From assembly GCA_902764235.1 (NCBI GenBank), contig CACWVH010000021.1, positions 1-47,744 of the forward strand: 47,744 bases of DNA. Direction: 5' to 3'. Origin of the DNA: an uncultured Ruminococcus sp. (lineage in GTDB: Bacteria; Bacillota; Clostridia; Oscillospirales; Acutalibacteraceae). Positions within the stretch are counted from its first letter, which is position 1. Each line of letters starts with the position of its first letter. Shown here piece by piece: positions 11,687 to 47,744 of this stretch. Position numbers and translations under genes: made by a program. The notes under the pieces are model-generated. The model did not search any database. It saw only the letters and a list, made by a program, of their open reading frames with translations, and was not told the origin of the DNA.

Positions 11687-11876
11687 CGCCGGCGCCAGCG
11701 TGACGCTGGACCCTTGATTCACGGCTTAGTCAGCCTGATAAAGTTTTTCCCGGGCACAGCCAGACTTTTTCAGCCTGAACTGCTGACATCATTTCTGCTT
11801 TAAAAGTCCCAGAATTATTTTACACTAACCCCACCATTGCCGGAGTGCCTTCTGTGTCAGTTTCACAGGGGTTCTT
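11687..11876 (+). repeat. Dispersed intergenic repeat, copy A (module 1 then start of module 2)
   Basis: Opens with GGCGCCGGCGCC-like palindromes and a perfect CCAGCGT-G-ACGCTGG palindrome (11695-11709), then module 1 from 11716 beginning GATTCACGGCTTAGTCAGCC. After the TTTTACACTAACCCC tail comes the start of module 2, CCGGAGTGCC (about 11840). The same blocks occur near 27.2, 30.7, 33.7 and 47.6 kb. It has no coding capacity. It fills most of the 492-base gap between 11440 and 11931. Confidence 0.85.
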
Positions 11877-11880
11877 TACT

Positions 11881-11920
11881 AAAAATTCCCGTATTGCATT
11901 ATTTTAAACTGCAATACGGG
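11881..11920 (-). terminator. Terminator of the TetR gene
   Basis: A perfect 10-pair stem CCCGTATTGC with GCAATACGGG (11888-11920) and a 13-base loop. On the minus strand it is followed by AATTTTT. It lies 12 bases after the regulator's stop codon. Confidence 0.88.
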
Positions 11921-11931
11921 ATGTCTGTTTT

Positions 11932-12492
11932 TTATTCAAACGCTTCAGGAAAAGCAGTGCGGATATCACTTACTATAAGCTTTGAAAGTATCGGGTATTT
12001 TAGCTCCGAGCTTTTCGCTCTTATAAAACAGAAAATATTTGTAAATATATATTCGAGCTTGATATCATTTTCTTCATTTCTTTCGATCAGCTTCTGTTCA
12101 TATATTTTTCTCATAAGGGCATCACAGAATAATTCTGCAAACATTGACCCGTCACTGTTTTCATATCCGTAGATCAGAGCATCTGCTTTCGCACCTTTTC
12201 TGTCATTGAATTCATAATAAAAATGAAAGAGAAAAGCCTCAGGATCGCTGAAAAATTCATCAAAATAACTGATATTATCAACACAGTTATTTATCTCCTC
12301 CATAAGCACCTCTGCATACAGCTCATAAATATCCTTATAATGAAGATAAAAGGTACCCTTATTTATTTCTGCTGTTCTGGCAATTTCCGTTACGGTAATC
12401 TTTTTCAGCTCTTTCTTTTCGATCAGCTCAAGAAAAACCTGCTTTATACGTTTTTTTGTTTTGACTATCCTGAGATCTGTTTTCTTTTCCAT
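11932..12492 (-). CDS. TetR/AcrR family transcriptional regulator
   Basis: 186-residue repressor-type regulator. The N-terminal helix-turn-helix is classical: ITVTEIARTAEINKGTFYLHYKDIYELY at about residues 32-59. The C-terminal ligand domain is unassigned; its C-terminal pattern resembles the TetR_C_7 group. The start is taken at the ATG 12492, with AGAGGTG seven bases upstream, in preference to a TTG at 12513. It is divergent from the activase gene and separated by 385 bases holding a 30-base inverted repeat and copies of TTGATTATT. It probably controls itself and the activase; the inducer is unknown. Confidence 0.9.
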   Translation of the reverse strand: MEKKTDLRIVKTKKRIKQVFLELIEKKELKKITVTEIARTAEINKGTFYLHYKDIYELYAEVLMEEINNCVDNISYFDEFFSDPEAFLFHFYYEFNDRKGAKADALIYGYENSDGSMFAELFCDALMRKIYEQKLIERNEENDIKLEYIFTNIFCFIRAKSSELKYPILSKLIVSDIRTAFPEAFE

Positions 12493-12504
12493 TTGCACCT
12501 CTGA

Positions 12505-12590
12505 AATAATCAACTGATATTGTAATTAGTTGATTAAACGACTTTATATTATTATCGACTATTGATTATTTTCTTGATGTTGATTATTAT
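12505..12590. promoter_or_regulatory. Palindromic operator and TTGATTATT cluster between tetR and the activase
   Basis: TAATCAACT (12507-12515) and AGTTGATTA (12528-12536) form a perfect inverted repeat of 9-base arms around 12 bases, 15 bases upstream of the TetR start codon. The word TTGATTATT recurs on the plus strand at 12562-12570 and 12580-12588 and on the minus strand at 12505-12513. A promoter toward the activase fits here: TTGATT (12562-12567), 17 bases, TATTAT (12585-12590). Confidence 0.65.
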
Positions 12591-12727
12591 TGTAGTGTGT
12601 TTATTAGTAAAAGTCAAGCGATTTTCTTTAAAAATTGGTGTATTATGGCAATAATTATATGTTACTCCGGAAATATTGATTGTTCCCCCGGCATATACTC
12701 TGTCTGTACATCATAAATTATTCCGGG

Positions 12728-12770
12728 TTGACCGAAAACGTGTATTTTGTCGGTCTGACACGATCTGACA
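12728..12770 (+). promoter_or_regulatory. Inverted and direct repeats in the activase leader
   Basis: GACCGA (12730-12735) pairs with TCGGTC (12750-12755), and CGGTCTGACA (12751-12760) is repeated as CGATCTGACA (12761-12770). These lie in the long untranslated region before the activase. They may be a second regulator site or leader RNA structure; no known riboswitch is recognised. Confidence 0.35.
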
Positions 12771-12877
12771 AATTTCATTGTCCAGCCGAAACCCTTGAAA
12801 CAAAGCGTTCAGCGTTTCCGGTTTTGTTTCTGCTTGTTCAGTCAGCTGCATATCTGGTGGGAAAAGGAGTTCAGAAA

Positions 12878-15800
12878 ATGAATAACAGCAAGGATTATAA
12901 AATCGGTATAGATGTCGGCTCTACTACTGTAAAGCTTGTTCTTACCGATAATGATAAAATACTGTTCCACAAATACATAAGGCATTTCGCAAAGCAAAGA
13001 AAAAGCATTATCAGTCTGCTTGAAGAGATCATTCCGATAATCGAGGGAAAAAAGTTCAGAGTCTGTATGACAGGCTCAGGCTCAAGGATACTGGCTGAAA
13101 AGCTTTCTGTTCCGTTTACTCAGGAGGTAGTTGCAAATTCTCTTGCACTCAAGAAGCGTTATGACAGGATCGGAACTGCTATTGAGCTTGGCGGTCAGGA
13201 CGCAAAGATCATTTTCTTCCGTGACGATGACAACGGAGAGCCTGTTGTCTATGATATGAGAATGAACGGGAGCTGTGCAGGAGGTACAGGCGCATTTATT
13301 GATGAGGTCGCTGCGGTTTTAGGCGTTGAGGACTGCAATATGAATGAGCTTGCAGAAAAAGGTACGAGCGTTTATGATATTTCCGGACGCTGCGGTGTTT
13401 TTGCAAAAACCGATATTCAGGCACTTCTTAATCAGGGCGTAAAAAAATCTGATATCGCACTGTCAAGCTATCATGCAATCGCCAAGCAGACAATAGGCGG
13501 TCTTTCCCAGGGACTTGAAATAAAAGCTCCTGTTGCGTTTGAAGGAGGTCCGCTCACCTTCCATCCGAGACTCGGAGAGGTTTTTGCACAGCGCCTTGCT
13601 CTGAAAAAAGAGGATATACTCATTCCTGAGAATCCTGAAATAATGGTTGCCTATGGCGCTGCGCTCAGTATCTCTGAAATACACGATCAGTCCGGGCAAT
13701 ACGATATACATCAGCTTATCGATATGATGAAATCAGCTGCGGATGAGGACAGCAGCTCTCACGAATCCGGTATGCTTTATTTTGAAAATGACGATGAATA
13801 TAAGGAGTTCCTTAAAAGAAATTCACACAGAGAAGCTCCGGTTTACAAGCCCATAGCCGGTGAGACTGTCAATGCTTTTCTGGGCATTGATTCCGGAAGT
13901 ACAACGACGAAGCTTGTTCTTTTGAATGAAAAGCAGGAAATAATTGATTCCTTCTATTCCTCAAACGAGGGAAATCCCCTTAATGTTGCCAAGGCTGCAC
14001 TGCTTGCAATGTATGACAAATACAAAAAGGCAGGGGCAAAGCTCAATATTGTTGCTGCGGCTTCAACGGGCTACGGAGAATTCCTGTTTTCCAAGGCTTT
14101 CCGCACAGAGGCGCATATTGTAGAAACGGTGGCTCATTCAATGGCTGCTTCAAAATTCTGCGATAACCCGACCTTTATACTCGATATCGGAGGTCAGGAT
14201 ATGAAGGCTATCTGGCTTGAAAACGGTATCATTACCAATATCGTTGTCAATGAAGCCTGTTCCTCAGGCTGCGGCTCCTTTCTCGAAAATTTTGCACAGA
14301 CTCTTAATATTGAAACAAACGATATCGCAAAAAGAGCTTTTCAGTCAAAGACACCTGCAAAGCTCGGCAGCCGCTGTACCGTTTTTATGAACAGCTCAAT
14401 CATCACCGAGCAGAGAAACGGCAAACAGCCCGATGACATCATGGCAGGTCTTTGCCGCTCTATCATAGAAAATGTATTTACAAAAGTAATCCGTGTTCCC
14501 AATATCGACTCTCTCGGCAGCAGGATCGTTGTTCAGGGAGGTACATTCCGCAATGACGCTGTTCTGCGTGCTATGGAGCAGTATGCCGGCAGAGAGGTTA
14601 CCCGTGCCCCCTATCCGGGACTTATGGGTGCTATCGGCTCTGCTCTTACTGCAATGGAGGAAGCTCAGAAGCCTGATTTCAAAAGATCCTTCATCTCATA
14701 TGAGCAGCTCAGAGCATTCACATACAAGCAGGAGGCCAATTCCCCCTGCCCCTATTGCACAAATCACTGCAACAGAACGATACTTACCTTCTCCACAGGA
14801 GAAAGCTGGGTTACAAACAACCGCTGCGAAAAAGGTGAGGTCCTCGGTGATCCGAAGGACAACAAGACAAGGGACAAAATAAAGGCTATTAATGACAAAA
14901 AGGATAAGCCTGTCAATATGTTCGAGGTACGCAAAAAGCTCATGTTCAAGGAATATCCCTATGAGCAGCTTCTTGAAAAACAGAATGTCGTTATCGGTAT
15001 GCCGAGAGTTCTGTATTTCTGGGAGGGTATGCCCTTCTGGAGTACGCTGTGGAAGTCCCTTGGCTTTGACATAAGGGTCTCTCCTGTCAGCACAAGAAAA
15101 ATCTATGAAAACGGTATTCATGCTGTTCCGTCAGATACCGAATGTTTCCCTGCAAAGCTTACTCACGGACATATACGTGAGCTTGTTAAGCTGGGCGTAG
15201 ACAGGGTATTCATGCCTATAATTGTTGTTATGCCCTCTGAAAATCCCGAGGAAACAAGCTTCTCAAGATGCGCACTTGTCAAGGGATATCCGATCGTTAT
15301 ACAGAATTCTGATAATCCTTACAGGGAATTCAATGTCAGGTTTGATAATCCTTATTTCTACTGGTATTCAAACGAGGACAGAGAAAAGCAGATCTGCGAT
15401 TATATGGAAAAGGAATTTGGCATTGACCGTGAGATATGCAAAAAGGCTGTCGGCTTTGCAGAAGATGCTCAGAAGCAATTTGACAGAGAGCTAAAAGAAC
15501 GCGGCAGAAAGCTTATTGACGATGTTACAAGAGAAAATAAATTTGCTGTTGTTATGGCCGGCAGACCGTATCATAATGATCCGCTTATCAACCATGAGCT
15601 TCCCGAAATGCTTGTCAATATGGGTGTTCCCGTTCTTACAGCTGACAGTATTCCTGAGCTTGGCAAGGTCGAGCTGAGAAAATCAAGAATAGATATCGTA
15701 AACAATTTCCATGCAAGAGTTCTCAGCAGCAGCATTGTAGCTGCAAACAACAGGAATCTTGAATATATACAGATCGTAAGCTTCGGCTGCGGACACGACG

Positions 15801-17218: not shown

Positions 17219-17271
17219 CCGGAATGATACACAATACTCATAGTCATCACTAACACAATTAAAATACAAGG

Positions 17272-17313
17272 CAGCGGCAGATCCTGTTTTTATGGATCTG
17301 CCGCTGTGTTTTT
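17272..17313 (+). terminator. Terminator of the activase gene
   Basis: A perfect 13-pair stem CAGCGGCAGATCC with GGATCTGCCGCTG and a 9-base loop, followed by GTGTTTTT. It may also stop the convergent minus-strand operon. Confidence 0.92.
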
Positions 17314-17388
17314 CTATTCTCTTCTTTAGTAAAAACCTGAATCAGTAACACTCAACTATAACTGCTTTCAAATATACGTAATTAAGCG

Positions 17389-19333: not shown

Positions 19334-19358
19334 ATAAATTCCTTCTTCCGCATATTTA

Positions 19359-19592: not shown

Positions 19593-19629
19593 TGTTACAC
19601 CTCGTATTTTCTTCTGCTGTTAAGCTCTT

Positions 19630-20295: not shown

Positions 20296-20301
20296 TAACT
20301 T

Positions 20302-27189: not shown

Positions 27190-27530
27190 AACCGGCGCCG
27201 GCGTGCCGCCAGCGTGACGCTGGACCCTTGATTCACGGCTTAGTCAGCCTGATAAATTTTTTTTCGGGCACCGCCATACTTATTCAGCTTGAACTGCAAC
27301 AGAATAAAATTCAAATCACTATTGCCAATTATAATTTTACACTTATGCCGCCGGTGTCGCGATTCACGACTTAGTCAGCCTGATAAAGTTTTTCCCAGGC
27401 ACCGCCGGACTTTTTAAGCCTGAACTGCGTTATATTTATAATTTAAAGCATATTTCCAATTATACACTAACCCATCGTCACGCTGCCCGCAGTTCGGACT
27501 TTCTTCTGGCCCATGCTTTTATTCAGATCA
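27190..27530 (+). repeat. Dispersed intergenic repeat, copy B (module 1 twice, then a module 2 tail)
   Basis: Module 1 occurs as two direct copies, from 27230 and from 27361 (131 bases apart), each beginning GATTCACG and continuing TTAGTCAGCCTGATAAA. The first is preceded by the CCAGCGT-G-ACGCTGG palindrome also seen in copy A. From about 27489 a fragment related to the end of module 2 follows (GGACTTTCTTCTGGC). It fills most of the gap between yerC and the BspA-like gene. Confidence 0.85.
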
Positions 27531-27587: not shown

Positions 27588-30497
27588 TCAGATCACTGTT
27601 ACATAGCATACAGCTGTTTTTCCGTTGCTTGTCTTTACGGTTATAACAGCCTTTCCGACTGACTGCGCTGTAACTCTTCCGTTTGATACAGTCGCTATGC
27701 TTTTATCACTCGTTATCCAATCGACAGTCTTGTTAGTAGTATCAGCAGGAGTGAAAATTGATTTCAGCTGGAATTTGGTACCTTTTTTAATTGTGATTTC
27801 TTCTCTGTTCATACTGACCGATTCTGCTTCGATCAGGGTAGTGTATACTATTACTGTACACCTTGCAGACAGACCATTGCAGGACGTCGCTTTAATCGTC
27901 ACAATTCCGGGAGACTGGGCAGTTATCATGCCGTTTGACACGGTTGCGATACTTCTGTCACTCGTAGTCCATGTCACTGTTTTATCAGTAACATTTTCGG
28001 GAGCAATAACTGCTTTGATCTGCTGCTTTGTGCCCTTTTTCAGATACAAAGAGGTCTTGTTCATTACAATTGTTTCAGGCTCTACCACAGGCTCTGTTAC
28101 AAATACAACGCATGAAGCTGCTTTTCCGTTTGATGTAACTGCTGTTATAGCAGCCGCACCCGCAGCCCTTGCAGTAACGATACCGTCAATTACTGTCACA
28201 ACAGCGTTATTGCTTGAGCTCCATGTCAGCGATGCATCAGTAGTATCAAAGGGCAGGATTTCAGCCTTCAGCTTCACTGTTTTTCCGCTTTCAACAGATA
28301 TCTCTGATTTGTCAAATTTTACAGTCTCTGCATATATTATTGGTTCAGTCACTGTCACAATACATACTGCTGTTTCTCCTTTTGATGTTTTAACAGTGAT
28401 CCTTGCACTTCCGGCACCTTTTGCAGTAACCTTGCCGTCTGCAACTGCGGCCACCTGAATATTATCTGTTGACCATACGAGTTCTTCTTCAGAATCGACC
28501 TTCAGCTGAAATGTCTTTCCGATATCAAGATAAAGCTGATCTCTGTTAAGCTCAAGCTCTGAGGAGTCAGTAAGTGCTTCAAACCTTACCTCACTGTCAA
28601 GCGCATATCTTTCAGCTGCGCTTCCGGAAAAACCATATATTATGAAATCCTCATCCTTTTTATCTTCACCCGTCTCAGCATCATAGTAAAAACCAAAGGC
28701 GCCGTAGCCGATGCTTTTTACACTTTCGGGAATAGTAATACTTCTCAGACTGTCACAGTCATAAAAGCCGAAATTGCCAAGGCTTGTGCAGCTGTCAGGA
28801 ATCGGAAGCTTCCTGAGGCTTCTGCAGCCGTAGAAAGCAAAGTTATCAATAAGTGTTATTCCGCAGGGTACATTTATCTCTTTAAGACTGCTGCAGCCGC
28901 GGAACATAGCAAAGGTTATTGTAGAGGTGCTTTCCGGAATATTGACATCCGTCAGATTGACACAGCCGAAAAATGTAGAATCGCCAAAGGTTGTGACACC
29001 TTCATCTATCCTTGCGCTTTTCAGCGCTGTACAACCGTAAAATGCGCTTTTCCCGACTGTTTTCACATTTCCGGGAATTACAACATTCTGCAAATACCGG
29101 CTGCCGTAAAACGCGCCCTTTCCAAGTCTTGTTACACCTGACGGAATCGTAAAGGAACTCCCTGTTTTTCCTGCGCCATAGCAGACAAGCTTTGTCTTGC
29201 TTTTATTAAAGAGTATTCCGTCAGACGATGAAAAGCTTTTATTCCTGCTGTCAACAGTTATTTCCTCAAGACTGCTGCAATTCCAGAAGGATGTATCATC
29301 AATAGATGTTGTATTTGCAGGAACAGCTATGCTTTTCAGGCTTTTACAATCGGCAAATGCCTTTTCGCCTATTTTAGCAATTCCGGAAGGAAGTGTTACA
29401 TTATCAAGACTTTTACAGCCATTGAATGTGCAGTTTGGTATTACTGTCAGCTTTGAAGGAATGTTTATTTCTTTGAGACTCGTACAGGATTCAAAGCTAT
29501 TGTTTCCGAATTCTTCAATGCTATCTCCAAGAACAGCGCTTCTGAGTTCCGTGCAGCCTAAAAAGGTTTTGTCCGGTATACTTTTTAATCCGTTTCCCAC
29601 TGCTACAGTCTGAAGGGAGCTGCAATATGAAAAAACCCTGCTGCCAAGACTTGTAACACTGTCAGGGATGGTCAGCTCTGTAACAGAGCTGCATTCACGA
29701 AAAGCATTATTATCAATACTGACCACACTGTCGGGAATATTGATCTCCCTCAGTGATGTACAGCCGGAAAAGGCAGAGCTTCCGATTTTTACGATACTAT
29801 CGGGAATAGTCACGCTTTCAAGTCCTGTACAGCAGAAAAAGCTGCCGGCATCGATCTCTGTCATACTTTCAGGAAGCTCAATGCTTGTAAGTGAATGGCA
29901 ATATCTGAATGCACTTCTGCCGATGCTTTTCAGGTTTTTCGGCAGCCTGACATCCGCAAGGGCAAAGCAGCCGTAAAATGCTTCCTCACCGATTATCTCC
30001 ACTGAATCCGGAATTGTAACATTTCTGAGGTTGATACAGCCGTCAAAGGAATCTGTATCGATTATTGTAACGCTCTCAGGTATTTCAATATCCGTCAGGC
30101 TGCAGCAGCCATAAAAGCAATTCCAGCCGAGCTTTGTTACAGTATCTGAAATCTCCACCTCACAAAGCCTGCTGCAATTCAGAAACAGACTTTCACCTAT
30201 ATCGGTTATTCCTGTTCCAATGACAACTTTTCTGATGTTGTCATTGTTATAAAAAGGAGATTCTGTCCTTTCATAATTATACATACCGCCGCTTCCGCTT
30301 AATGTAAGTGTTCCGTCAGAGGAAAACTCATATCTGACATATTCGCCGCAGCTGCCGCTTTTAAGTATATTACTCTCAAGTGCATTTACCTGAAAACCGG
30401 CACATGAAATTACAGATGTATCTGCAAGGCACACTGTTCCGACCAATGCAGCAGCCATCAATGCAGCAAAAATCCTTTTTGTTAAAAACGTTTTCAT
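27588..30497 (-). CDS. Secreted BspA-like leucine-rich-repeat protein with four bacterial Ig-like domains
   Basis: 969 residues. The signal peptide at 1-26 or so is followed by about 20 LRR_5 (BspA/TpLRR) units of 23 residues between about residues 85 and 640, each of the form AFxGCxxLxxVxIPxSVxxIG. One unit is enlarged by about 36 residues (SSSDGILFNKSKTKLVCYG). Four Big_2-type Ig domains of about 80 residues close the protein (from about 655), the first lacking part of its core. There is no LPXTG, dockerin or membrane anchor visible. Such proteins mediate adhesion or carbohydrate/host binding in gut bacteria; the ligand here is unknown. It is preceded by its own promoter. Confidence 0.92.
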   Translation of the reverse strand: MKTFLTKRIFAALMAAALVGTVCLADTSVISCAGFQVNALESNILKSGSCGEYVRYEFSSDGTLTLSGSGGMYNYERTESPFYNNDNIRKVVIGTGITDIGESLFLNCSRLCEVEISDTVTKLGWNCFYGCCSLTDIEIPESVTIIDTDSFDGCINLRNVTIPDSVEIIGEEAFYGCFALADVRLPKNLKSIGRSAFRYCHSLTSIELPESMTEIDAGSFFCCTGLESVTIPDSIVKIGSSAFSGCTSLREINIPDSVVSIDNNAFRECSSVTELTIPDSVTSLGSRVFSYCSSLQTVAVGNGLKSIPDKTFLGCTELRSAVLGDSIEEFGNNSFESCTSLKEINIPSKLTVIPNCTFNGCKSLDNVTLPSGIAKIGEKAFADCKSLKSIAVPANTTSIDDTSFWNCSSLEEITVDSRNKSFSSSDGILFNKSKTKLVCYGAGKTGSSFTIPSGVTRLGKGAFYGSRYLQNVVIPGNVKTVGKSAFYGCTALKSARIDEGVTTFGDSTFFGCVNLTDVNIPESTSTITFAMFRGCSSLKEINVPCGITLIDNFAFYGCRSLRKLPIPDSCTSLGNFGFYDCDSLRSITIPESVKSIGYGAFGFYYDAETGEDKKDEDFIIYGFSGSAAERYALDSEVRFEALTDSSELELNRDQLYLDIGKTFQLKVDSEEELVWSTDNIQVAAVADGKVTAKGAGSARITVKTSKGETAVCIVTVTEPIIYAETVKFDKSEISVESGKTVKLKAEILPFDTTDASLTWSSSNNAVVTVIDGIVTARAAGAAAITAVTSNGKAASCVVFVTEPVVEPETIVMNKTSLYLKKGTKQQIKAVIAPENVTDKTVTWTTSDRSIATVSNGMITAQSPGIVTIKATSCNGLSARCTVIVYTTLIEAESVSMNREEITIKKGTKFQLKSIFTPADTTNKTVDWITSDKSIATVSNGRVTAQSVGKAVITVKTSNGKTAVCYVTVI

Positions 30498-30560: not shown

Positions 30561-30589
30561 ATTCTACCATACCACCCGTCAAAAATCAA
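30561..30589 (-). promoter_or_regulatory. Promoter of the BspA-like gene
   Basis: On the minus strand TTGATT (30589-30584), a 17-base spacer and TAGAAT (30566-30561), about 65 bases before the ATG. Confidence 0.6.
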
Positions 30590-30599: not shown

Positions 30600-30917
30600 C
30601 TAATCCCACCGGCGTGCCGCCGGAGTCGCGACGCACTATCGCTCCGCTTACGCTGCGCTCTGGGTTCAGGACTTCCGCTTTTATTCCCGCTTTTATGTCA
30701 GTTGATTATAGCTCCTTCAAAATTCCCAGAAAAATTTTACATCAACAACTAATCCCAGCACTGACAGCGTAGTGCCTCCGCTGTCGAAATCGCAGGGGTC
30801 GCTACGCTCTTAACCACCAGCCGATAATGTCGAAGTCGTGGTTCAGGCTTTCTTCTGACCAGAATCTTTGTCTTGGTTGATTATAGTTTTTTCAAAACTC
30901 CCAGCAATATTTAACTG
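30600..30917 (+). repeat. Dispersed intergenic repeat, copy C (two tandem module 2 copies)
   Basis: Two related units, about 30600-30750 and 30751-30917, both start TAATCCCA, pass through a GTTCAGG-CTT block and GTTGATTATAG, and end near TCCCAG with an AATTTTAC or ATATTTAAC tail. The second unit matches copy D through GTGCCTCCGCTGTC, CGCTCTTA and TTCAGGCTTTCTTCTG. It occupies most of the 489-base gap between the BspA-like gene and smr. Confidence 0.8.
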
Positions 30918-32037: not shown

Positions 32038-33585
32038 TCAGATTTTCATAAGAACTATAGTCTGAGGCTGCATTACAAGATAACTGCCGTTCTTTTCATG
32101 GCTGCCGATCTCAAACACTGCTTTACCGTCAAAAGCAAAGGGTGCGCTCTGCTGCTTGTCAGTAGGGTTGACTGCGATTATGAAGCTTCCCCTTTTAAAG
32201 ATGAAGGGATATTTTTCCTTGACAGCATAGATCACTTCAAAATCTCCGTCTGACTGAAGATCAGGGTTTTCATGTCTGATCGCAATTACTTTTCTGAGTG
32301 TGTTAAGTATGGAGTCAGGGTCTTTTTCTGCTGCTTCTACTGTAACAGCATTTTCTCCGTTGTCAACAGGCAGGTAAAGCTCACTTTCATCTGCTGTGGA
32401 AAAGCCGTGGTTTTTTGTATTATCCCACTGCATAGGAGTTCTTGTTCCTGTTCTTGAGAATCCGCCCTCCTTGCTTGTCAGACCTTCCATATAGCTCATT
32501 CCTATTTCATCACCATAATAAAGGAAGGGCACGCCCGGCATCATAAATATAAATGAATAGGCTATCTTTGCTTCAAGCTCTGAGAACATTCTTGTCATTC
32601 TCGGAGTATCATGGTTACAGGTAATGAAGCTGATATACCCCTTGCCCTTTGTATTTTTCAGATCCTCAAGGTATTCATCAAGGAATTTTGTTATATCGCC
32701 CTTTTCATTTTTGCCGAATACAGCCTTACATTCGCCTGTTTCCCAGTTTTTGTCACGGAAAAGTATACGATAACCATTTGTATCATGGTCAAGATAGAAA
32801 TCACTGTGGAAGCCTGCTCCGATTGAAACCTTGGGGTTGCACCATTCTGAAACAAGGGCTGCCTCCGGATATTCCTCATCAAGCATAGCCCTGACATTCT
32901 TCCATACCTTACAGGTCTCCGGCTTTTCGCCGTCCTCGTTTTTGACAAGTGAGTCTGCCATATCCACACGGAAGCCGTCACAGCCTGCGTCAAGCCAGAA
33001 ACGCATTATATCCTTGAGTGCTTCGACAGTAGCCTGACAGTCAGGGTCAGACGGAGATTTCTGCCATGCCGGATGAGTGATATTATTAAAGCCGTAATTG
33101 AGAGCCGGCTGGGAGCTGAAATAATTGACCATATAATTTCCGTCACGGTCTGTTATACCGCAAAGCAGCCTGTACTGCGGAGGCGCCTCCCATACACTGT
33201 CCGTCCAGATATATCTTCCGCTGAATTCATTTTTCTCCGGACTTTTACTTTTGAGAAACCATTCGTTCTGATCAGATGTATGACCCGGAACAAGATCAAG
33301 AAGTATTTTTATTCCCTTTTCATGTGCCGCATCAAAAAGATGTATGAGATCATCATTTGTTCCGTATCTTTCTGCTACCTTGTAATAATCCCTTACGTCA
33401 TATCCTGCATCCATAAAGGGTGAATCATATACAGGATTGAGCCATATAGCATTACAGCCAAGGCTTTTTACATAATCCAGCTTTGAAATGATACCGTTAA
33501 TATCCCCAATTCCGTCTCCGTTGCTGTCGCAGAAGGTCTGAGGATAAATTTCATAGAAAACTGCGTCCTTTAACCAATTTGGCAT
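32038..33585 (-). CDS. GH13 alpha-glucosidase/oligosaccharide hydrolase
   Basis: 515-residue cytosolic glycoside hydrolase family 13 enzyme. Conserved regions are present: DGIGDINGI near the N-terminus, ILLDLVPGHTSD (region I), DGFRVDMADSL with the nucleophile Asp at about 207, VSEW with the acid/base Glu at about 247, and CNHDTPRM with the stabilising Asp at about 326. It resembles alpha-1,4/1,6-glucosidases and trehalose-synthase-like enzymes; specificity cannot be fixed from sequence. No signal peptide is present, so it acts on imported oligosaccharides. GGAGG lies eight bases before the ATG. It is transcribed alone. Confidence 0.93.
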   Translation of the reverse strand: MPNWLKDAVFYEIYPQTFCDSNGDGIGDINGIISKLDYVKSLGCNAIWLNPVYDSPFMDAGYDVRDYYKVAERYGTNDDLIHLFDAAHEKGIKILLDLVPGHTSDQNEWFLKSKSPEKNEFSGRYIWTDSVWEAPPQYRLLCGITDRDGNYMVNYFSSQPALNYGFNNITHPAWQKSPSDPDCQATVEALKDIMRFWLDAGCDGFRVDMADSLVKNEDGEKPETCKVWKNVRAMLDEEYPEAALVSEWCNPKVSIGAGFHSDFYLDHDTNGYRILFRDKNWETGECKAVFGKNEKGDITKFLDEYLEDLKNTKGKGYISFITCNHDTPRMTRMFSELEAKIAYSFIFMMPGVPFLYYGDEIGMSYMEGLTSKEGGFSRTGTRTPMQWDNTKNHGFSTADESELYLPVDNGENAVTVEAAEKDPDSILNTLRKVIAIRHENPDLQSDGDFEVIYAVKEKYPFIFKRGSFIIAVNPTDKQQSAPFAFDGKAVFEIGSHEKNGSYLVMQPQTIVLMKI

Positions 33586-33617: not shown

Positions 33618-33646
33618 ATTATAACATAATACCTCTGTTTATTCAA
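33618..33646 (-). promoter_or_regulatory. Promoter of the GH13 gene
   Basis: On the minus strand TTGAAT (33646-33641), a 17-base spacer and TATAAT (33623-33618), about 30 bases before the ATG. Confidence 0.78.
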
Positions 33647-33666: not shown

Positions 33667-33850
33667 TCCGGAGTGCCTCCGCTGTCAATTTCGCGGGCTT
33701 CTCTTCGCTCTTACCCACAATCCAATACTGTCTAAGTTGCGGTTCAGACTTTCTTCTGGCAAAAACTTTTATGTTGGCTGACTCAGGATTTTTTCAATAT
33801 TTTGTTTAACCAACTTAAATTTCCCATACCATTTTACTGTTCAATCCAGG
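33667..33850 (+). repeat. Dispersed intergenic repeat, copy D (module 2)
   Basis: Begins CCGGAGTGCCTCCGCTGTC, whose first part is a palindrome (CGGAG-TGC-CTCCG), and continues through TCGCGGG, CGCTCTTACCCAC and TTCAGACTTTCTTCTGGC. It aligns with the second unit of copy C over about 150 bases. The rest of the gap to 34030 is AT-rich and probably holds the symporter promoter, which I cannot place with confidence. Confidence 0.8.
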
Positions 33851-37924: not shown

Positions 37925-38065
37925 TAAACGCCCCTCGTCTAACGCCGAGGGGCTCAATGAATAATGAATAGTGAATAATGAATAGTTTATAATATTGCTC
38001 CGAGGGGCGTTTATGTATTATTCGTTATTCATTATTCATTATTCATTTTTCATTATTCATTAAAA
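37923..38065. repeat. Nested inverted repeat with AATAATGAAT-type arms after the tRNAs
   Basis: CATAAACGCCCCTCG (37923-37937) and CGAGGGGCGTTTATG (38001-38015) are perfect 15-base inverted arms. Inside them GCCCCTCG with CGAGGGGC (37930-37953) gives a terminator-like hairpin. The interior carries tandem TGAATAATGAATAG units, and their reverse complements (ATTATTCATT) follow at about 38016-38060, so large alternative structures can form. Confidence 0.85.
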
Positions 38066-38804: not shown

Positions 38805-38875
38805 GCCCGCAATTTTGACAGCAGAGGCACTCCGTTCTATGTCGGCTGGTTTTAGTTTATTCAAAGCTCTCTGAA
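38805..38875 (-). repeat. Dispersed intergenic repeat, degenerate copy F (module 2, opposite orientation)
   Basis: Read on the minus strand it contains CGGAGTGCCTCTGCTGTC followed by AAAATTGCGGGC, matching the start of module 2 in copy D with a few changes. It sits in the gap between sigG and the small anchored-protein gene. Confidence 0.6.
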
Positions 38876-39810: not shown

Positions 39811-39854
39811 GAAAAGACGGTATACAGTGCTTTACTGCATACCGCCGTTTTTTA
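39811..39854. terminator. Terminator after pnp, probably bidirectional
   Basis: CGGTATACAG (39818-39827) pairs with CTGCATACCG (39835-39844), continuous in minus-strand RNA through one G-U pair. On the minus strand TCTTTTC follows; on the plus strand TTTTTTATTT follows. Confidence 0.82.
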
Positions 39855-39858
39855 TTTA

Positions 39859-42048: not shown

Positions 42049-42143
42049 TGATCTTTCCTCCGTTTTTTGTTTTTTCAGCCCCGGATAATATCTGACTATC
42101 CGGCTCTGTTTTTCCAGAGGAGCTTACCGGTCTGTACCAATGC

Positions 42144-42197
42144 ATAATTCATAATTCAAAGCATACAAGCTGTTATACACTTTGAATTATGAATTAT
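42144..42197. repeat. Perfect 18-bp inverted repeat between rpsO and pnp
   Basis: ATAATTCATAATTCAAAG (42144-42161) and CTTTGAATTATGAATTAT (42180-42197) are perfect arms around 18 bases, about 100 bases upstream of pnp. In RNA this gives a long AU-rich hairpin in the pnp leader. Confidence 0.9.
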
Positions 42198-42267
42198 AAA
42201 CCGCATTGTGTGACCGACCCGCTGACTCCTCTGTGATGTACCCGAAATAATTCTTTAAAGGAATTGA

Positions 42268-42295
42268 AACAAGGCAGTCTGCGAAACAGACTGCC
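42268..42295 (-). terminator. Probable terminator or attenuator after rpsO
   Basis: Perfect nine-pair stem GGCAGTCTG with CAGACTGCC and a 5-base loop, nine bases after the rpsO stop. On the minus strand TTGTTTC follows, a short T-run, so some read-through into pnp is likely. Confidence 0.65.
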
Positions 42296-42304
42296 CCATA
42301 ACAA

Positions 42305-42568
42305 TTATTTACGGATACCGAGTCTTGCGATGATTGAACGATAACGCTCGATGTCTACCTTGATGAGGTAATTGAGAAGGCTTCTTCTCTGACCGATCAT
42401 CTTAAAAAGGCCTCTTCTTGAGTGGTGATCCTTTTTATGAGTCTTGAGGTGCTCAGTGAGGTCTGCAATTCTCTTTGTGAGAATAGCGATCTGAACCTCG
42501 GGTGAACCTGTGTCGCCCTCATGTGTAGCGTACTCTTTGATGATAGCATCCTTTTCTTCTTTAAGCAT
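42305..42568 (-). CDS. rpsO: 30S ribosomal protein S15
   Basis: 87-residue primary 16S rRNA-binding protein. The sequence from [34 protein letters not shown] through [14 protein letters not shown] to [25 protein letters not shown] is typical S15 and full length. The ATG at 42568 has AAAGGTGG nine bases upstream; the 17 in-frame codons further upstream belong to a structured leader. Downstream is pnp. Confidence 0.97.
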
Positions 42569-42701
42569 TGTGTTATCCACCTTTACTGTAATATATTTGC
42601 CTTCGCCCACTACCGGCAAGCAAACACCGGTACCATCTCAGTCAAGGGCGTGTGGATTCCTGTATTCAGGCTTCTCCCCAAGACCGGGAACGGGCTCAAC
42701 G
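42569..42701 (-). promoter_or_regulatory. Structured rpsO leader, candidate S15 autoregulatory RNA
   Basis: About 133 bases of leader. TACCGG and CCGGTA (42611-42632) form a hairpin nested inside CGCCC with GGGCG (42604-42650), and CCTG-tatt-CAGG forms another (about 42659-42670), giving a multi-helix fold just before the ribosome binding site. S15 represses its own mRNA through leader RNA in several bacteria; a match to a named leader family was not tested. Confidence 0.6.
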
Positions 42702-42707
42702 CTGATT

Positions 42708-42736
42708 ATTATAACATATTATTTACCGCTTGTAAA
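42708..42736 (-). promoter_or_regulatory. Promoter of rpsO
   Basis: On the minus strand TTTACA (42736-42731), a 17-base spacer and TATAAT (42713-42708). Confidence 0.85.
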
Positions 42737-42771
42737 GTGATATATTCAAATTTTTATCGTTATTTCGTTCC

Positions 42772-44382
42772 TTACTCTGTATTATTAAGCAGATTGCGGC
42801 AGGCAAGAAATATTCCGGCTGATACTATTAAATTCCACAGGAACATAGGTCCGCCAAGCAAAGTCGTTGCAATATATCCGAACTGTCCGGCAAAGCCTGA
42901 CAGAACCACAAGTCCGGCAATTATTCCCGGAAGTGCCGTCATAACTATCATCGAGATATAGAAGGTTATGAAGATACCGCCTGTACTGTCAACACCTACA
43001 AGTCTTTGCGCGAGTATATTTGCAGCTATATACAGCGTTCCGAAGCTTCCGTATGTAAACATTGAGACGATTATGTCTATCGGCTGTCCTCCCGCTGCAA
43101 ATGCAAGCAGACCAAAGGTGATGATTCCGTCTGTATAAGGCTTGATAAGCCCTGTTGCTGCTGCCATGACCAGCTTTTTGACAGCTCCGTCAGGTATAAG
43201 ATAGATATACGGCTTTGTCAGCTCCTTTACCCAGTCGCCCGAGGCACTGAAAAAGAACTGTACATATGCAAGTATGACCATTGCCGCAAGATAAATGATC
43301 GTCGGCTCGATACCGGGCTTTGCCTGCTTTATACCGAAGGTGATGACAAATCCTACAAACAGCAGTACAAAGGTATTGATATTGAAAAACATGAATCTTG
43401 AACGTCTGCTGCCTTCAAGAAGATGCTTATGAAAAATTGCTGTCGCACCTTTTCCTCTTCTGACTCCCCTTTTTCTCAGCTTGATCTCCTTATTGCCAAG
43501 CATGACCTTGTCAGAGAACTTTCCCTCACGGACAGCCTCTCTGAACTCCTGATAGCTTTCAGCCTGAGACAATACATCCTCGTAAAAATCAAGCCTTGTA
43601 AGCACCAGCGTCAGCACAGAGAAAACAGCACAAAGCAGGGTCAGAGAACCGAATACTATCATCTTTATGATATCCGCTTCAAGGATACCGAATACAAGCC
43701 CGTGCATCCATCCGATGAAGGGAATATATTCAAGTGCAGGCAGGGATATTGCTGCGAAAAGATTTTCAACGGATATGCCCTTCACAAATGAGTAGATTAT
43801 CACTGTTCCCAGTGCGGAGAACGCCATTGCGTAAATAATATATTTCATTACGCTTGCACGTACCGGATGTGTGCTTGCAAGGCAGAATATCATCAGCGTA
43901 ACAAGCTGCACCATTACAAGCATCAGCACGATACCAAGAATAAGTATCACAGTCTGTTCCACTGTCATACTGAACATTTTTATTATCATTCCGCCGTATG
44001 CCGCAAAGGTCACAACAAGCACAAGCATTGTAGCAAGCTGACGGCCTACTCCGTATATCAGCACACGCTTGGGCGATACCGGCGCAACAAACATATTGTT
44101 TACATCGCTGAGTGAAAAAAAGCTTGTCCCTGAGCTGAGCCCCTTCAGAAGCACCGGAATGCTTATGAAAAAAAACACAGCAAGATATGCTCCGGACAAA
44201 AGTCTGGGATCGCTCCATATTTCCGAGCTGCCGAGATCGCCTCCTGCGGTATATCCTCTTATTGCTCCGTACAGCATACTTACTGCAACAAATGCATATA
44301 GCAGGAATTTAAGCGGATGACGCAGGGTATCTATAATTTCATTTTTAATTGTTTTTCTCAGAAGATATGATATTGCTCCCAA
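42772..44382 (-). CDS. ABC exporter permease (putative ABC_export family)
   Basis: 536-residue membrane protein with about twelve hydrophobic helices, partner of the ATPase encoded just upstream. It starts GAISYLLRKTIKNEIIDTLRHPLKFLLY, and has SLSDVNNMFVAPVSPKRVLIYG, a pattern shared with Firmicute ABC_export permeases that I recall as PF16962-like. The cytosolic linker at about residues 280-315 is strongly basic (MLGNKEIKLRKRGVRRGKG). A GTG at 44391 is also in frame, but GGAG abuts it; the TTG at 44382 sits seven bases after GGAG and is preferred. The substrate is unknown. Confidence 0.8.
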   Translation of the reverse strand: MGAISYLLRKTIKNEIIDTLRHPLKFLLYAFVAVSMLYGAIRGYTAGGDLGSSEIWSDPRLLSGAYLAVFFFISIPVLLKGLSSGTSFFSLSDVNNMFVAPVSPKRVLIYGVGRQLATMLVLVVTFAAYGGMIIKMFSMTVEQTVILILGIVLMLVMVQLVTLMIFCLASTHPVRASVMKYIIYAMAFSALGTVIIYSFVKGISVENLFAAISLPALEYIPFIGWMHGLVFGILEADIIKMIVFGSLTLLCAVFSVLTLVLTRLDFYEDVLSQAESYQEFREAVREGKFSDKVMLGNKEIKLRKRGVRRGKGATAIFHKHLLEGSRRSRFMFFNINTFVLLFVGFVITFGIKQAKPGIEPTIIYLAAMVILAYVQFFFSASGDWVKELTKPYIYLIPDGAVKKLVMAAATGLIKPYTDGIITFGLLAFAAGGQPIDIIVSMFTYGSFGTLYIAANILAQRLVGVDSTGGIFITFYISMIVMTALPGIIAGLVVLSGFAGQFGYIATTLLGGPMFLWNLIVSAGIFLACRNLLNNTE

Positions 44383-44466
44383 ATTTATCACTCCGTTTCA
44401 GGCAAAACGCCCGACTCAGTGCATCCCGACAGATCTTTTCAAAGGATATCCACTGATATTGTCCGA

Positions 44467-45183
44467 TCATTCTTTATTATCACTATTATTCTTTTCTGTT
44501 ATACTGAAGAAAAGCTCTTCAAGATTTTCTCCGCTTTCTTCAACAAATTTTCTTGTTCTTTCGGCTTCTATCCTGCCGTTCATCATTATAAATACCCTGT
44601 CCCATATATCCTCTACGCTTTCAAGCATATGGGTAGAGATAATAATAGTAGTACCCTTTGCCTTCAGCTCGCTGAGCATTGCTTTAAGCTCCTTTATGGC
44701 ATGGGGATCAAGACCTACAAGAGGCTCGTCAAAAAGTATGACTCTCGGATTTATCAGCATTGCACAGCAGATACTGATTTTCTGCTGCATACCCTTTGAA
44801 AGCTCCTTTCCCAGCTTATCACGCTTGTCTGTAAGCTCAAGACGGCGCATAAGCTCATCTGCACGATCCTCCCAGTTTTCAAGGCTGTATGCTCTGGCAA
44901 TGAATTCCATATGCTCCCACACTGTCAGCAGCTCATATGGCGCAGGTATCTCAGGAACATATCCGAGTATTTTTTTCGCATCAGTGCTTTTATTATTGAA
45001 GCCGCAAAGCTCTATCTCTCCTTCAAAGCGAAGAAGCCCGGCTATGCATTTTATTGCTGTTGATTTTCCTGCTCCGTTCGGTCCTGCAAGTACAGCAGTT
45101 TCTCCATCATTAACCATAAAGCTCAGATTATCATTTGCTACAAAACGATGATATTTTTTTGTGAGATGAGATACATTAAGCAA
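44467..45183 (-). CDS. ABC transporter ATP-binding protein
   Basis: 238-residue ATPase. Walker A GPNGAGKST, Q-loop YVPEIP, signature LSKGMQQK, Walker B VILFDEP followed by LVGLDP, and the switch His STHML are all present. This belongs to the two-component exporter type (CcmA/NatA-like) and pairs with the permease 84 bases downstream. A TTG start at 45183 after GAGGAAGTGGA is the best candidate. It is 35 bases after deoD and may be co-transcribed with it. Confidence 0.9.
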   Translation of the reverse strand: MLNVSHLTKKYHRFVANDNLSFMVNDGETAVLAGPNGAGKSTAIKCIAGLLRFEGEIELCGFNNKSTDAKKILGYVPEIPAPYELLTVWEHMEFIARAYSLENWEDRADELMRRLELTDKRDKLGKELSKGMQQKISICCAMLINPRVILFDEPLVGLDPHAIKELKAMLSELKAKGTTIIISTHMLESVEDIWDRVFIMMNGRIEAERTRKFVEESGENLEELFFSITEKNNSDNKE

Positions 45184-45217
45184 AATTATCCACTTCCTCT
45201 TTCAGATTGATTGAGCT

Positions 45218-45916
45218 TCAGACCGTACCCAGCGCAATTTTGACCATATCATCAAAGGTAGTCTGGCGCTCCTGCGGACTGCAGGAAAGACCTGTAAGCG
45301 GACAATCAGAAATAGTGCATATGCAAAGAGCTTTTTTCCCGGCTCTTGCCGCATTATAATACAGTGCAGCACTTTCCATTTCTGTTGCAAGCACTCCCAT
45401 CCTTTGCCACTTTGCAAGAGTGCCTGATTCATCATAGAATGTATCGGTGCAAAGCAGAGTACCTACATGAACTTTAATTCCGAGGGAAGCAGCGCTGTCA
45501 TCCGCTCGTCTGAGAAGCTCATATGACGCAGCAGCGACCGGATCAAACGGCATTCCGAACTGTCTTGCATAGGTCGAACCGGTACAGCTTGCAAGTCCTA
45601 AAACAACGTCACGCAGCCCCAGCTTATCGCTTACGGCACCTGCGGTTCCGATACGGATGATACTGTCAACATCATATTCATTGAAAAGCTCATATGAATA
45701 AATACCCATTGACGGCATACCCATACCGCTTGCCATGACTGTAATTTCTTTATCATTATATATGCCTGTATATGCATACATTCCCCTGACTTCATTTACA
45801 AGCCTTGCATTTTCAAGAAAATTTCCGGCGATATACTTTGCTCTCAGCGGATCTCCCGGCATCAGGACTGTTTTTGCTATCTCGCCTTTTTCGGCGCTGT
45901 TATGAGGTGTTGACAT
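45218..45916 (-). CDS. deoD: Purine-nucleoside phosphorylase
   Basis: 232-residue hexameric-type nucleoside phosphorylase that splits purine (deoxy)nucleosides with phosphate for salvage. The substrate-loop residues are in place: LMPGDPLRAKYIA, MASGMGMPSMGIYSYEL, RIGTAGAV, and ATEMESAALY; ISDCPLTG supplies the catalytic Asp in the family's SD pattern. The ATG at 45916 follows GGGAGG by seven bases; an earlier in-frame codon at 45940 is rejected. It sits between the acidic membrane protein and the ABC exporter genes on the same strand. Confidence 0.96.
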   Translation of the reverse strand: MSTPHNSAEKGEIAKTVLMPGDPLRAKYIAGNFLENARLVNEVRGMYAYTGIYNDKEITVMASGMGMPSMGIYSYELFNEYDVDSIIRIGTAGAVSDKLGLRDVVLGLASCTGSTYARQFGMPFDPVAAASYELLRRADDSAASLGIKVHVGTLLCTDTFYDESGTLAKWQRMGVLATEMESAALYYNAARAGKKALCICTISDCPLTGLSCSPQERQTTFDDMVKIALGTV

Positions 45917-45979
45917 AGTTATTCCTCCCAAAATAATCAAAGCTGTTCATCCGGAGAAAAGATCAGTATTCAAAGTGGC

Positions 45980-46600
45980 TCAGTCAAGACTTTTTTCTGC
46001 ATGATACTGTCTGTTCACCTTATAGACCGTCACTCTGCTTCCCGGCTCCAATTCTTCCCATCCGTCCTCATACCATTCTACCATCGGACAGAACTGCTTT
46101 TCTTTTTCAGACCATACTTTAAGGCAGCGTGCGTTTTTGCTTGTCAGGAATTTTTCAGTAATTACTCCGTCGAAAGCACCATACTTGCTCATAAAGATCT
46201 GATAGATCTGTATTCCGGAATAAGCCAGTCCGACTACCGGAAGAATATAACCATATACCGGGGCAGATTTGAATATCATAAATGCTCCTACAGAAAGAGA
46301 GATTATCAGCAGAATACCTCCGAAGAAGGCACACGAGAACATATTTTTCTTTTTCTGGATTTCAAGCTCCTTATCTGTCAGTTCACGGTAATTAAGCTCT
46401 TTAACATCCGTTCTGTACTGACGATAGTTTTCATCATCGCCCTCATCCTCCATGTAATTGTCCAGAGCCTCACTGCCTGAAATACTTACACCATTATCGG
46501 CATCAGCATTATCATCAGCAGAAGCAGGTGAAGTATTTTCATTAGCTTCTGTATCGTTATTATCTAAAAGCTCCTTTTCAAAATCATTTTCGTTTGACAT
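45980..46600 (-). CDS. Acidic-headed membrane protein of unknown function
   Basis: 206 residues. Residues 1-75 are very acidic and low in complexity (EANENTSPASADDNADADNG). Two transmembrane helices lie at about 91-111 and 117-138, and a C-terminal soluble domain of about 65 residues contains WSEKEKQFCPMVEWYEDGWEELEPGSRVTVYKVN, which looks like a small beta domain. I do not recognise the family. AGGAGG precedes the ATG at 46600. It is 63 bases upstream of deoD. Confidence 0.75.
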   Translation of the reverse strand: MSNENDFEKELLDNNDTEANENTSPASADDNADADNGVSISGSEALDNYMEDEGDDENYRQYRTDVKELNYRELTDKELEIQKKKNMFSCAFFGGILLIISLSVGAFMIFKSAPVYGYILPVVGLAYSGIQIYQIFMSKYGAFDGVITEKFLTSKNARCLKVWSEKEKQFCPMVEWYEDGWEELEPGSRVTVYKVNRQYHAEKSLD

Positions 46601-46679
46601 ATAGACCTCCTGTTTTAACAATTATTTTTCTTTAAGCTGCATTCCCTGATTACGGGATGCTTTTGCCTGCTTATTATTA

Positions 46680-47402
46680 TTATTCTTCCTCTTCCTCAAA
46701 TTCTTCCATATCCTCAGTCGGGATAAGCTCTCCGGTCAGGAATTCTATTGAGCGCTCGATACTATCCTTTGTACCTGCCCAGTTATTGCTGCCGATACTG
46801 CGGTAATCAGTCATTGATGCAAAATGATGAACATCCTCTGTAAGCTTTTTAATATATGTACCTGTTAACCTTGAGGTTTCCTCATAAAATGCCTGATAGC
46901 TTTTTCCGAGACCCTTCTGGTCGATATTCATAAGAAGATAAAAATGCTCAAGGCAGATAAACTGCTGTTCAGAATAAAGCTGACGGAATTCCGGCTCACT
47001 TATCCACATTGCATGGACAATACGTACCATATTCTCCATATTCTGTTTTAAATCACGGCAGATAAAGCAGTCCCCGAGCATTGCACCAAGGGCAGCCATT
47101 TTCTTCTTGTCAGGCTTTTTCGGCGGAACAACAGGCACAAACTGTTCCGAGATCTGCTGAAGATGACTCTCAAGTATCAATGCATTTGAAAGTCGCTTTC
47201 CCAGACGCACCATTTGTTCAAAATGGCGGAAGCAGAAGCCCTGTTCATTTGTTTTTATCCTGACGCTCGGTTCCATCATAGCAGAGCCGGTTATATATTC
47301 AGCCTTTCGTTCCTCGAGCATTTCCCTCATTCTGCACATAGGACATCTGTCCTTAGGCAAAAAAACATCATTCACCGGTATACTGCAAATATTTTCCTGC
47401 AT
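46680..47402 (-). CDS. DUF6062-like protein with two CxxC...CxxH modules
   Basis: 240-residue cytosolic protein that matches my recollection of DUF6062 (unknown function). Two metal-site-like modules have almost identical spacing: C20-x2-C23 with C57-x2-H60, and C112-x2-C115 with C150-x2-H153. The C-terminus is very acidic (MEEFEEEEE). Zinc or iron-sulfur binding is inferred from the residues only. The ATG at 47402 follows AGGAAG by eight bases; a GTG at 47411 is rejected. The downstream hairpin before the next gene is weak, so coupling is uncertain. Confidence 0.78.
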   Translation of the reverse strand: MQENICSIPVNDVFLPKDRCPMCRMREMLEERKAEYITGSAMMEPSVRIKTNEQGFCFRHFEQMVRLGKRLSNALILESHLQQISEQFVPVVPPKKPDKKKMAALGAMLGDCFICRDLKQNMENMVRIVHAMWISEPEFRQLYSEQQFICLEHFYLLMNIDQKGLGKSYQAFYEETSRLTGTYIKKLTEDVHHFASMTDYRSIGSNNWAGTKDSIERSIEFLTGELIPTEDMEEFEEEEE

Positions 47403-47579
47403 ATTTCTCACTTCCTTATATTATTCAGTGCTGCACATAAAAGTATGTTCCTGATATTTTATAGTCTGATTATCAACAAAACAAATTGTAAGAAATGATA
47501 TTAATCAGACTTTAGTTATAAATTATATTATACAATATGTCAACAAAAAAGTAAACAGCGGTACGTAAAAATTATAATC

Positions 47580-47744
47580 AGCGGAGTGCCTCCGCTGCCG
47601 CGATTCACGGCTTAGTCAGCCTGATAAAGTTTTTCCCGGGCACCGCCATACTTATTCAGATTGAACTGCATCAGAGTCAGAATTCAAAAACCATCGCCAA
47701 TTATAATTTTACACTTACAATTATAATCAGCATAACCAACCCCC
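47580..47744 (+). repeat. Dispersed intergenic repeat, copy E (module 1), cut by the window end
   Basis: Starts with the palindrome GCGGAG-TGC-CTCCGC (47581-47595), then module 1 from 47602 (GATTCACGGCTTAGTCAGCC, CTGATAAAGTTTTTCCCGGG, CACCGCCATACTTATTCAG). It ends with CCAATTATAATTTTACACTT, the same tail as copy B. It closely matches copy B over about 115 bases. The preceding part of the gap (47403-47579) is AT-rich and presumably holds the DUF6062 gene's promoter. Confidence 0.85.

Follow-up and report, generated by a model that had tools for sequence, protein, structure and literature searches.

Small mosaic repeats of an uncultured Ruminococcus lie mostly in one orientation at the upstream edge of promoters

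Some families of small non-coding repeats described in bacteria bear comparison with the intergenic repeats reported here from a 47,744-nucleotide stretch (the window) of an uncultured Ruminococcus sp. (contig CACWVH010000021.1 of assembly GCA_902764235.1). In the neisserial intergenic mosaic elements (NIME), a 20-bp repeat called dRS3, which has inverted arms of 6 bp and is targeted by the integrase of a filamentous phage, is combined with cassettes of 30–160 bp into mosaic intergenic arrays (PMC3898611). REPs are located mainly between unidirectional and convergent genes and, in the species plotted, near the 3' ends of the upstream genes (PMC3733652); they bear either a GTAG/GTGG or a CGTC tag, and the GTAG class accompanies RAYTs (PMC3733652, PMC3116915, PMC6006769). 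REPs of the CGTC class carry CGTC at one end of a hairpin with a stem of 8–9 bp and a loop of 4–5 bases. BOX, RUP, and SPRITE of Streptococcus pneumoniae are, again, over-represented between convergent genes (PMC3049150). In the passages on REPs and BOX available to us, known small repeats gather behind genes, where they do the least harm, while the family in Ruminococcus does the opposite: it avoids gaps that lack promoters and docks upstream of promoters, and does so in two lineages with unrelated bodies.

In the genome that contains the window (3,233,545 bases in 254 contigs, about 91% complete; the window is our contig C21), arrays of these repeats mostly border sigma-A-type promoters on their upstream side, with a short hairpin (the head) pointing towards the −35 box, and are hardly ever found in gaps between convergent genes. 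The first-pass annotation of the window had described a two-module dispersed repeat and overlooked its main feature, namely that the arrays dock upstream of promoters and keep a fixed orientation there. We give about even credence to the reading that the arrays belong to a mobile, mosaic family of small repeats, akin to REP and NIME, that docks upstream of promoters.

Positions in this genome were analyzed in the window and 40 further stretches (507,126 bases together), from which the profile hidden Markov models (HMMs) of the repeat bodies were also built; given that the 40 stretches were selected for holding copies of one body, called A, occupancy per gap is inflated, and the orientation should be unaffected. 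Assignments to genes, gaps, and gap types rely throughout on our own gene caller. All of the 98 matches to body A were intergenic, so that the claim of copies lying solely between genes holds for this body. When a gap between co-directional genes was occupied (n = 38), the array was antisense to both genes in 37 cases and mixed in one. Convergent gaps were occupied in at most 1 of 47 cases (one with the first of two HMM sets and also with the head pattern, none with the second), compared to 20 of 37 divergent gaps (Fisher p = 1.5e-9 with 0/47). The head faced a gene start at 69 of 71 array ends, which is trivial in divergent gaps, and all of the 65 single-orientation arrays followed the faced gene. 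The direction of replication is unsupported as the cause of this orientation, because only 53 of the 65 followed the local majority strand and the other 12 ran against it yet faced their gene. Also, the idea of a regulon was rejected; the 64 faced genes scanned (e.g., tRNA synthetases, a GTPase with an EF-Tu-type domain, GidA, acetate kinase, and surface proteins with leucine-rich repeats (LRR) or Big_2) were spread over 150 Pfam families, the commonest of which had three members.

In terms of promoters, 52 of the 65 facing arrays tested had a strong match resembling TTGACA-N17-TATAAT on the head side, whereas dinucleotide shuffles gave one in 10%; this test left out arrays with a flank shorter than 70 nt (4 of the 69 facing arrays; uncounted in the relative G013, described below). 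In 38 of the 52, the −35 box was 20–49 nt away from the body, namely 0 to about 28 nt past the head. When heads were instead collected by their sequence pattern (n = 50, after dropping those with a flank under 80 nt, an N, a duplicate, or a neighbour within 400 nt), the promoter was directed outward on the head side in 37 cases, on the opposite strand in 5, and on the body side in 2. An exact target site at the −35 box was considered and rejected, since the distances from the hairpin arm to the box spread over 0–38 nt; this was despite a GG preceding the −35 box in 21 of 78 arrays (from this genome and G013) versus 6 of the 105 promoters without an array that served as controls.

A unit of these arrays is composed of the hairpin head, which is often truncated, a linker mostly of the GTCGC or ACCCTT type, an exchangeable body, and a tail running to TTTTACAC and four further bases. 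The head typically has a GC stem of 6 bp and a loop of three bases, and its main stems are CCGGCG/CGCCGG, CCAGCG/CGCTGG, and GCAGCG/CGCTGC. Among 130 A units (86 from this genome and 44 from G013), a perfect hairpin with a three-base loop preceded 77 and was absent from 53; the loop was TGC in 43 and TGA in 28. In 61 distinct heads, unfiltered and compared at a fixed offset, 53% of the cells were Watson–Crick pairs, compared to a mean of 45% (maximum 51%) after shuffling and 24–31% when the heads were slid by one or two bases; the hairpin hence appears to be kept through sequence change, albeit with a modest signal. Five heads folded as DNA were unusually stable (z-scores of −2.4 to −4.9). In contrast to the DNA heads, the body gave no sign of a structured RNA, a reading that was rejected for the body: RNAalifold found no consensus structure of body A over 130 sequences, and one whole unit folded no better than shuffles on either strand (z of −1.1 and +0.23). 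An Rfam scan of the window matched two tRNAs and nothing else.

The profile HMMs matched body A 98 times, B 34 times, C 22 times, and D 8 times, with B and C partly overlapping; after overlaps were removed, 145 units remained (A 98, C 20, B 19, and D 8). The tails T1–T4 were recurrent and T5 was matched once, and the bases following TTTTACAC leaned with the tail: TTAC in 18 of 28 for T1 and TAAC or GAAC in 15 of 28 for T2, the matches of T2 and T4 overlapping. Both modules of the first-pass annotation exist, and its count was too low: the bodies number four or more, and both the tails and the heads come in several types. Units are concatenated head to tail with bodies and tails in mixed order, and the TTTTACAC motif marks 47 of 60 junctions between successive units; the head that follows forms a perfect hairpin at 17 of these, is partial at 22, and is of another kind at 8. 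As regards the features of a MITE (terminal inverted repeats and target-site duplication), the two ends of a unit are dissimilar (hairpin head versus TTTTACAC tail), one junction repeats TGCCG by eye, and no regular duplication was seen. Half-hairpins such as CCGGCG and CCAGCG stand between the outermost head and many promoters. The modules make up about 12% of the non-coding DNA in the examined stretches, which were chosen for holding copies. Besides, we noticed a second palindromic repeat with the ends CACGGAAATCAA and TTGATTTCCGTG (16 end words in 507 kb; L043 at about 8100–8350, L024, L036, L053, L054, and others); in several arrays it separates the outermost head from the promoter. One C body (L032, minus strand, about 10605–10760) contains a tandem run of CGCTTACGCTCCGCTTACG, a sign of replication slippage within an array.

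The arrays and the facing promoters in the window are as follows.

11640–11668, minus strand: promoter of the leftward gene 10417–11439, faced by array 1; promoter match with −35 TTGACA (11668–11663) and −10 TATTAT (11645–11640); flank conserved in G013.
11687–11829, plus strand: array 1, with half-hairpin arms 11687–11694, head CCAGCGTGACGCTGG 11695–11709, body A 11716–11783, and tail T2 to TTTTACACTAAC at 11829.
11840–11871, plus strand: partial unit with the remnant of a C-type head (CCGGAGTGCCTTCTGTGTCA...), read by eye; weak direct repeat.
27192–27345, plus strand: array 2, unit 1, with arms of an older CCGGCG-type head 27192–27208, head CCAGCGTGACGCTGG 27209–27223, body A 27230–27297, and tail T1 27299–27345.
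27346–27428, plus strand: array 2, unit 2, with a 5'-truncated head (TGCCGCCGGTGTCGC) and body A 27361–27428.
27457–27522, plus strand: end of array 2, with a tail remnant (TTATACACTAAC, by eye) and a 3' fragment of body C.
30561–30589, minus strand: probable promoter of the leftward BspA-like LRR gene 27588–30497, faced by array 3; −35 TTGATT and −10 TAGAAT.
30609–30742, plus strand: array 3, unit 1, with head CCGGCGTGCCGCCGG 30609–30623, body B 30633–30690, and tail to TTTTACAT followed by CAAC.
30763–30915, plus strand: array 3, unit 2, with a degenerate C-type head, body C at about 30796–30869, and tail.
33618–33646, minus strand: probable promoter of the leftward alpha-amylase gene 32038–33585; TTGAAT-17-TATAAT, read by eye.
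33668–33793, plus strand: array 4, with the C-type head CGGAG-TGC-CTCCG 33669–33681 and body C to about 33772.
38805–38834, minus strand: reversed fragment of a C-type head and body, which breaks the orientation rule; in G013, this gap has a head oriented as usual and then a B-like stub.
47515–47543, minus strand: promoter of the leftward DUF6062 gene 46680–47411, faced by array 5; −35 TTGACA and −10 TATAAC; conserved in G013.
47579–47717, plus strand: array 5, with head CAGCGGAGTGCCTCCGCTG 47579–47597, body A 47602–47669, and tail T1 to about 47717.

Most of the copies listed in the first-pass annotation were recovered: module 1 (GATTCACGGCTTAGTCAGCC) at 11716, 27230, 27361 (with one mismatch), and 47602, module 2 at about 30766 and 33667, partial forms near 11840 and 27489, and the reversed fragment at 38805–38834. 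The copy near 30600, which had been taken for a partial module 2, is actually a third body (B) behind the CCGGCGTGCCGCCGG head. The short GC-rich hairpins and the TTTTACACTWA tail described in that annotation are both real. An automatic promoter match in the flank of the array at 33668 was discarded as false, because it falls within the head.

The arrangement recurred in part in relatives. The sister genome G013 is 86% identical to the present genome in the first gene region compared, and 60 of its contigs were analyzed, of which 40 were selected for an element or a match to a window gene and 20 were arbitrary, so that its occupancy per gap is inflated as well. A promoter was present in 25 of 30 flanks there, versus 12% of shuffles. 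The two genomes share synteny over about 40 kb, in which the present genome has arrays at five sites; G013 is occupied at four of these, at the same promoter edge and with different contents, and has 105 nt of unrelated sequence in place of an array at the fifth. In the sister genome, we also noticed about 400 extra nt without any module match (L113, 4697–5096), where the window has about 2 nt (42763–42766). G005 (77% identical; 214 kb) had no A, C, or D body and one weak match to B; three CCAGCGTGACGCTGG heads were found there adjoining promoter-like sequence, each of which reaches an N or a contig end. G011, rated 100% complete, was represented by 20 stretches (385 kb; 18 were the first contigs and 2 were chosen by gene match) and has a body family of its own with 52 matches, along with three matches to T2-like tails. 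The body HMMs of the present genome had no match in these stretches of G011, nor did the G011 body HMM in those of the present genome. By body, the occupied co-directional gaps of G011 were 12 antisense, 3 mixed, and 0 sense. For heads collected by their pattern, a promoter was found on the head side in 9 of 15 and never on the opposite strand or the body side. G011 keeps the frame and the orientation bias with bodies of no detectable similarity.

The repeat was found genome-wide, beyond the interval first given for it, and a large part of the genus has its head. With up to two mismatches, the first 20 bases of module 1 occur 131 times (59 + 72) in the present genome and the reversed control never; among 40 genomes (this one and relatives), G013 had 12 matches, G019 had one, and the other 37 had none. 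When up to three mismatches were allowed, matches came from 8 of the 64 genomes in the genus (148 in the present genome, 27 in G013, and one or two in each of six others), a threshold at which controls also gave single matches in five genomes. A degenerate form of module 1 was found exactly, in the named genome collection, solely in the rumen metagenome-assembled genomes RUG573 and RUG11828 (5 stretches), and in no viral contig. The head pattern SCRGCGTGMCGCYGS is far wider, occurring in 44 of the 64 genomes with up to 180 copies, and its reversed control had no match in any of them; the present genome has 166 matches, 76 of which lie in the examined 507 kb, none in called genes. Nonetheless, 34 of the 64 genomes have 0–3 heads, and some nearly complete ones have none, so that the head is dispensable. 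Across the order, 230 of 394 genomes had at least one head match, mostly few and at a level where controls often had some as well, and a few others had 15–26 heads with 0–4 control matches. G160, of another family, has 88 heads, 76 of which are on contigs C3, C10, C14, and C28; this clustering possibly represents mis-binned Ruminococcus contigs or an island.

As for mobility, the Y1_Tnp domain was not found in the present genome, about 91% complete as it is, and it occurs in 17 of the 64 genomes with no association with heads (Fisher p = 1.0; Spearman −0.04). IS110 was found in 13 of the 64 and in 2 of the 7 head-rich genomes (100 heads or more). Neither RAYT/IS200 nor IS110 was thus supported as a partner by a transposase search that covered these two families. 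One unit (window 27205–27360) had no match among plasmids and known phages. A gene-bearing autonomous copy was also looked for: 18 genes are flanked on each side by an array no more than 500 nt away (in the present genome, G013, and G011), but they share no enzyme family, and the commonest domain was Big_2 (5 of 18), with one phage-integrase domain, among the first 25 of 53 families listed.

Comparison with the known systems can now be made, within what the passages at hand describe. NIME is nearest in architecture, with small inverted repeats and exchangeable cassettes in intergenic arrays, all of which we found here. Unlike NIME, however, the heads do not contain ATTCCC(N8)GGGAAT of dRS3, the dRS3 integrase has no known counterpart here, and docking at promoters in one orientation is not reported in the passages of PMC3898611 available to us. 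The likeness to REP, BIME, and REPIN consists in short intergenic palindromes of high copy number that form hairpin DNA and arrays; in contrast to REPs, GTAG/GTGG is not at the foot of the hairpin, where the linker side has ACCCTT, TGTCGC, GGTCGC, and the like, and the promoter side has no recurrent tag by eye. The heads also differ from the CGTC class, being mostly of a 6-bp stem and a three-base loop with no terminal CGTC. BOX, RUP, and SPRITE are small repeats of a Gram-positive host, and BOX is modular, with fixed boxA and boxC ends and a variable boxB inside, but convergent gaps are nearly empty in our case, a distinction by position. No published description of the present repeats was found in the literature on Ruminococcus, on REPs and mosaic repeats, and on promoters or by the letters of the hairpins, most subscription papers being outside the coverage. 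The earlier view of a dispersed non-coding repeat that matches no named family is supported by the Rfam, plasmid, and phage results, and its suggestion of a non-autonomous mobile element is likely, albeit with neither a clean empty site nor a regular target-site duplication.

If the arrays are indeed a mobile family docking upstream of promoters, a trans-acting enzyme other than a resident Y1 (RAYT/IS200) transposase would recognize the hairpin as single-stranded or cruciform DNA, and new units would enter in one direction, either just upstream of a promoter or at a head that had docked there earlier, inside it or next to it. After such entry, half-hairpins would remain towards the promoter, heads at internal junctions would be truncated at the 5' end, and sites would persist while their contents turn over; upstream supercoiling, bound RNA polymerase, or simple tolerance are candidates for what makes the promoter the chosen place. 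Dispensability, replacement of bodies, and the lack of a regulon favour such a mobile passenger, and yet the persistence of sites and their orientation also fit a selected cis-element, in which the hairpin and its array would be kept in one direction for insulating the promoter from read-through or supercoiling or for raising its activity. We regard this alternative as possible but on the unlikely side. It would account for the orientation and promoter adjacency in the present genome, for the orientation bias recurring with unrelated bodies in G011, for sites persisting between the present genome and G013 while their contents change, and for the hairpin being preserved across sequence types of the head; on the other hand, the heads are patchy in the genus down to nearly complete genomes with almost none, the faced genes form no functional class, the bodies differ freely, and many promoters in the same stretches (the 105 controls) do without an array. 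Spread without any enzyme is improbable in our estimate; here, replication template switching and recombination at GC hairpins would copy and shuffle the units among arrays, and upstream promoter edges would be where such DNA survives. The tail motif missing at 13 of 60 junctions, some of them fused at short homologies by eye, the slippage run of CGCTTACGCTC units in one C body, and the partial heads at 22 of 47 junctions are what this process would produce, but it explains neither the fixed orientation in co-directional gaps nor why convergent gaps are avoided, although repeats should survive there most readily; 12 of 65 arrays also run against the local majority strand. Classical REPs or REPINs moved by a RAYT (Y1) transposase are a very improbable source. 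They would fit short intergenic palindromes of up to 180 copies per genome, hairpin DNA, and mosaic arrays, and an incomplete assembly, like that of the present genome, could miss a gene in single cases (G011, though, is rated 100% complete); nevertheless, neither the present genome nor the seven richest in heads has Y1_Tnp, no association is seen over the 64, GTAG/GTGG is missing on the linker side, and the position at promoter edges with convergent gaps avoided is opposite to that of REPs in the passages available to us.

Several results weigh against mobile docking upstream of promoters as well. A strong promoter is missing from 13 of the 65 flanks, the four facing arrays with less than 70 nt between body and start codon have no promoter match, and the distance from the hairpin arm to the −35 box varies (0–38 nt, one of 71 nt, and four arrays without an arm word, in the present genome and G013). 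The fragment at 38805 is reversed; in G013, 7 co-directional arrays face their gene and 3 of 10 run the wrong way, and its empty convergent gaps (0 of 30 occupied, p = 0.14) are not significant alone. In G011, 1 of 26 convergent gaps bears a body, and the head pattern alone gives 6 antisense and 2 sense. At 30 single loci, 27 of them from other species, the bias was weak or absent: co-directional cases were 5 antisense and 4 sense, with one convergent case and four heads within genes, and for the 27 a promoter was on the head side in 9 of 26, on the opposite strand in 3, and on the body side in 5; several of these genomes have a single match, sometimes within a gene, and such matches may not be elements at all. 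With regard to movement itself, no clean empty site was seen (the sole unoccupied ortholog holds unrelated sequence), no regular target-site duplication was seen at the units, and none of the seven genomes that have 100 heads or more contains Y1_Tnp, leaving no mobilizing enzyme identified. Transposition need not be current, furthermore: for 81 of 94 A units, another stretch holds a relative 110 nt long or longer, and its identity is 90% or more for 51 units, but 98% or more for only 4 and 90–98% for 47.

A bolder version of mobile docking, which we consider rather unlikely, is that the arrays represent a kind of mobile DNA in bacteria whose insertions go to the upstream edge of active promoters in one direction, by way of an unrecognized enzyme acting on hairpin DNA, as a counterpart of promoter-seeking retroelements. 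That the frame, namely the hairpin head and the TTTTACAC tail, is kept within the genus while the cargo is replaced would be part of this proposal and is held just as tentatively. If the insertion site is chosen, a bacterial element recognizes promoters with an enzyme that remains to be found; if the site is selected, many genes in some rumen bacteria bear an unrecognized upstream element.

Outside the genus, a head word with ACCC (SCAGCGTGACGCTGSACCC) was found in 68 environmental viral stretches at 76 places, 71 of them distinct, and two control patterns gave 0. It directly followed a stop-codon triplet in 16 of the 71, and neither docking at a promoter nor the TTTTACAC tail was seen at any of 73. 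Another head word, CCGGCGTGCCGCCGGKGTC, was in five viral stretches, with no control pattern for comparison. On the bolder reading above, the hairpin and ACCC word in viral contigs may point to a carrier beyond the genus.

Lastly, the window contains an AT-rich inverted and direct repeat of TTATTCATTATTCATT at 37956–38062, close behind two tRNA genes.

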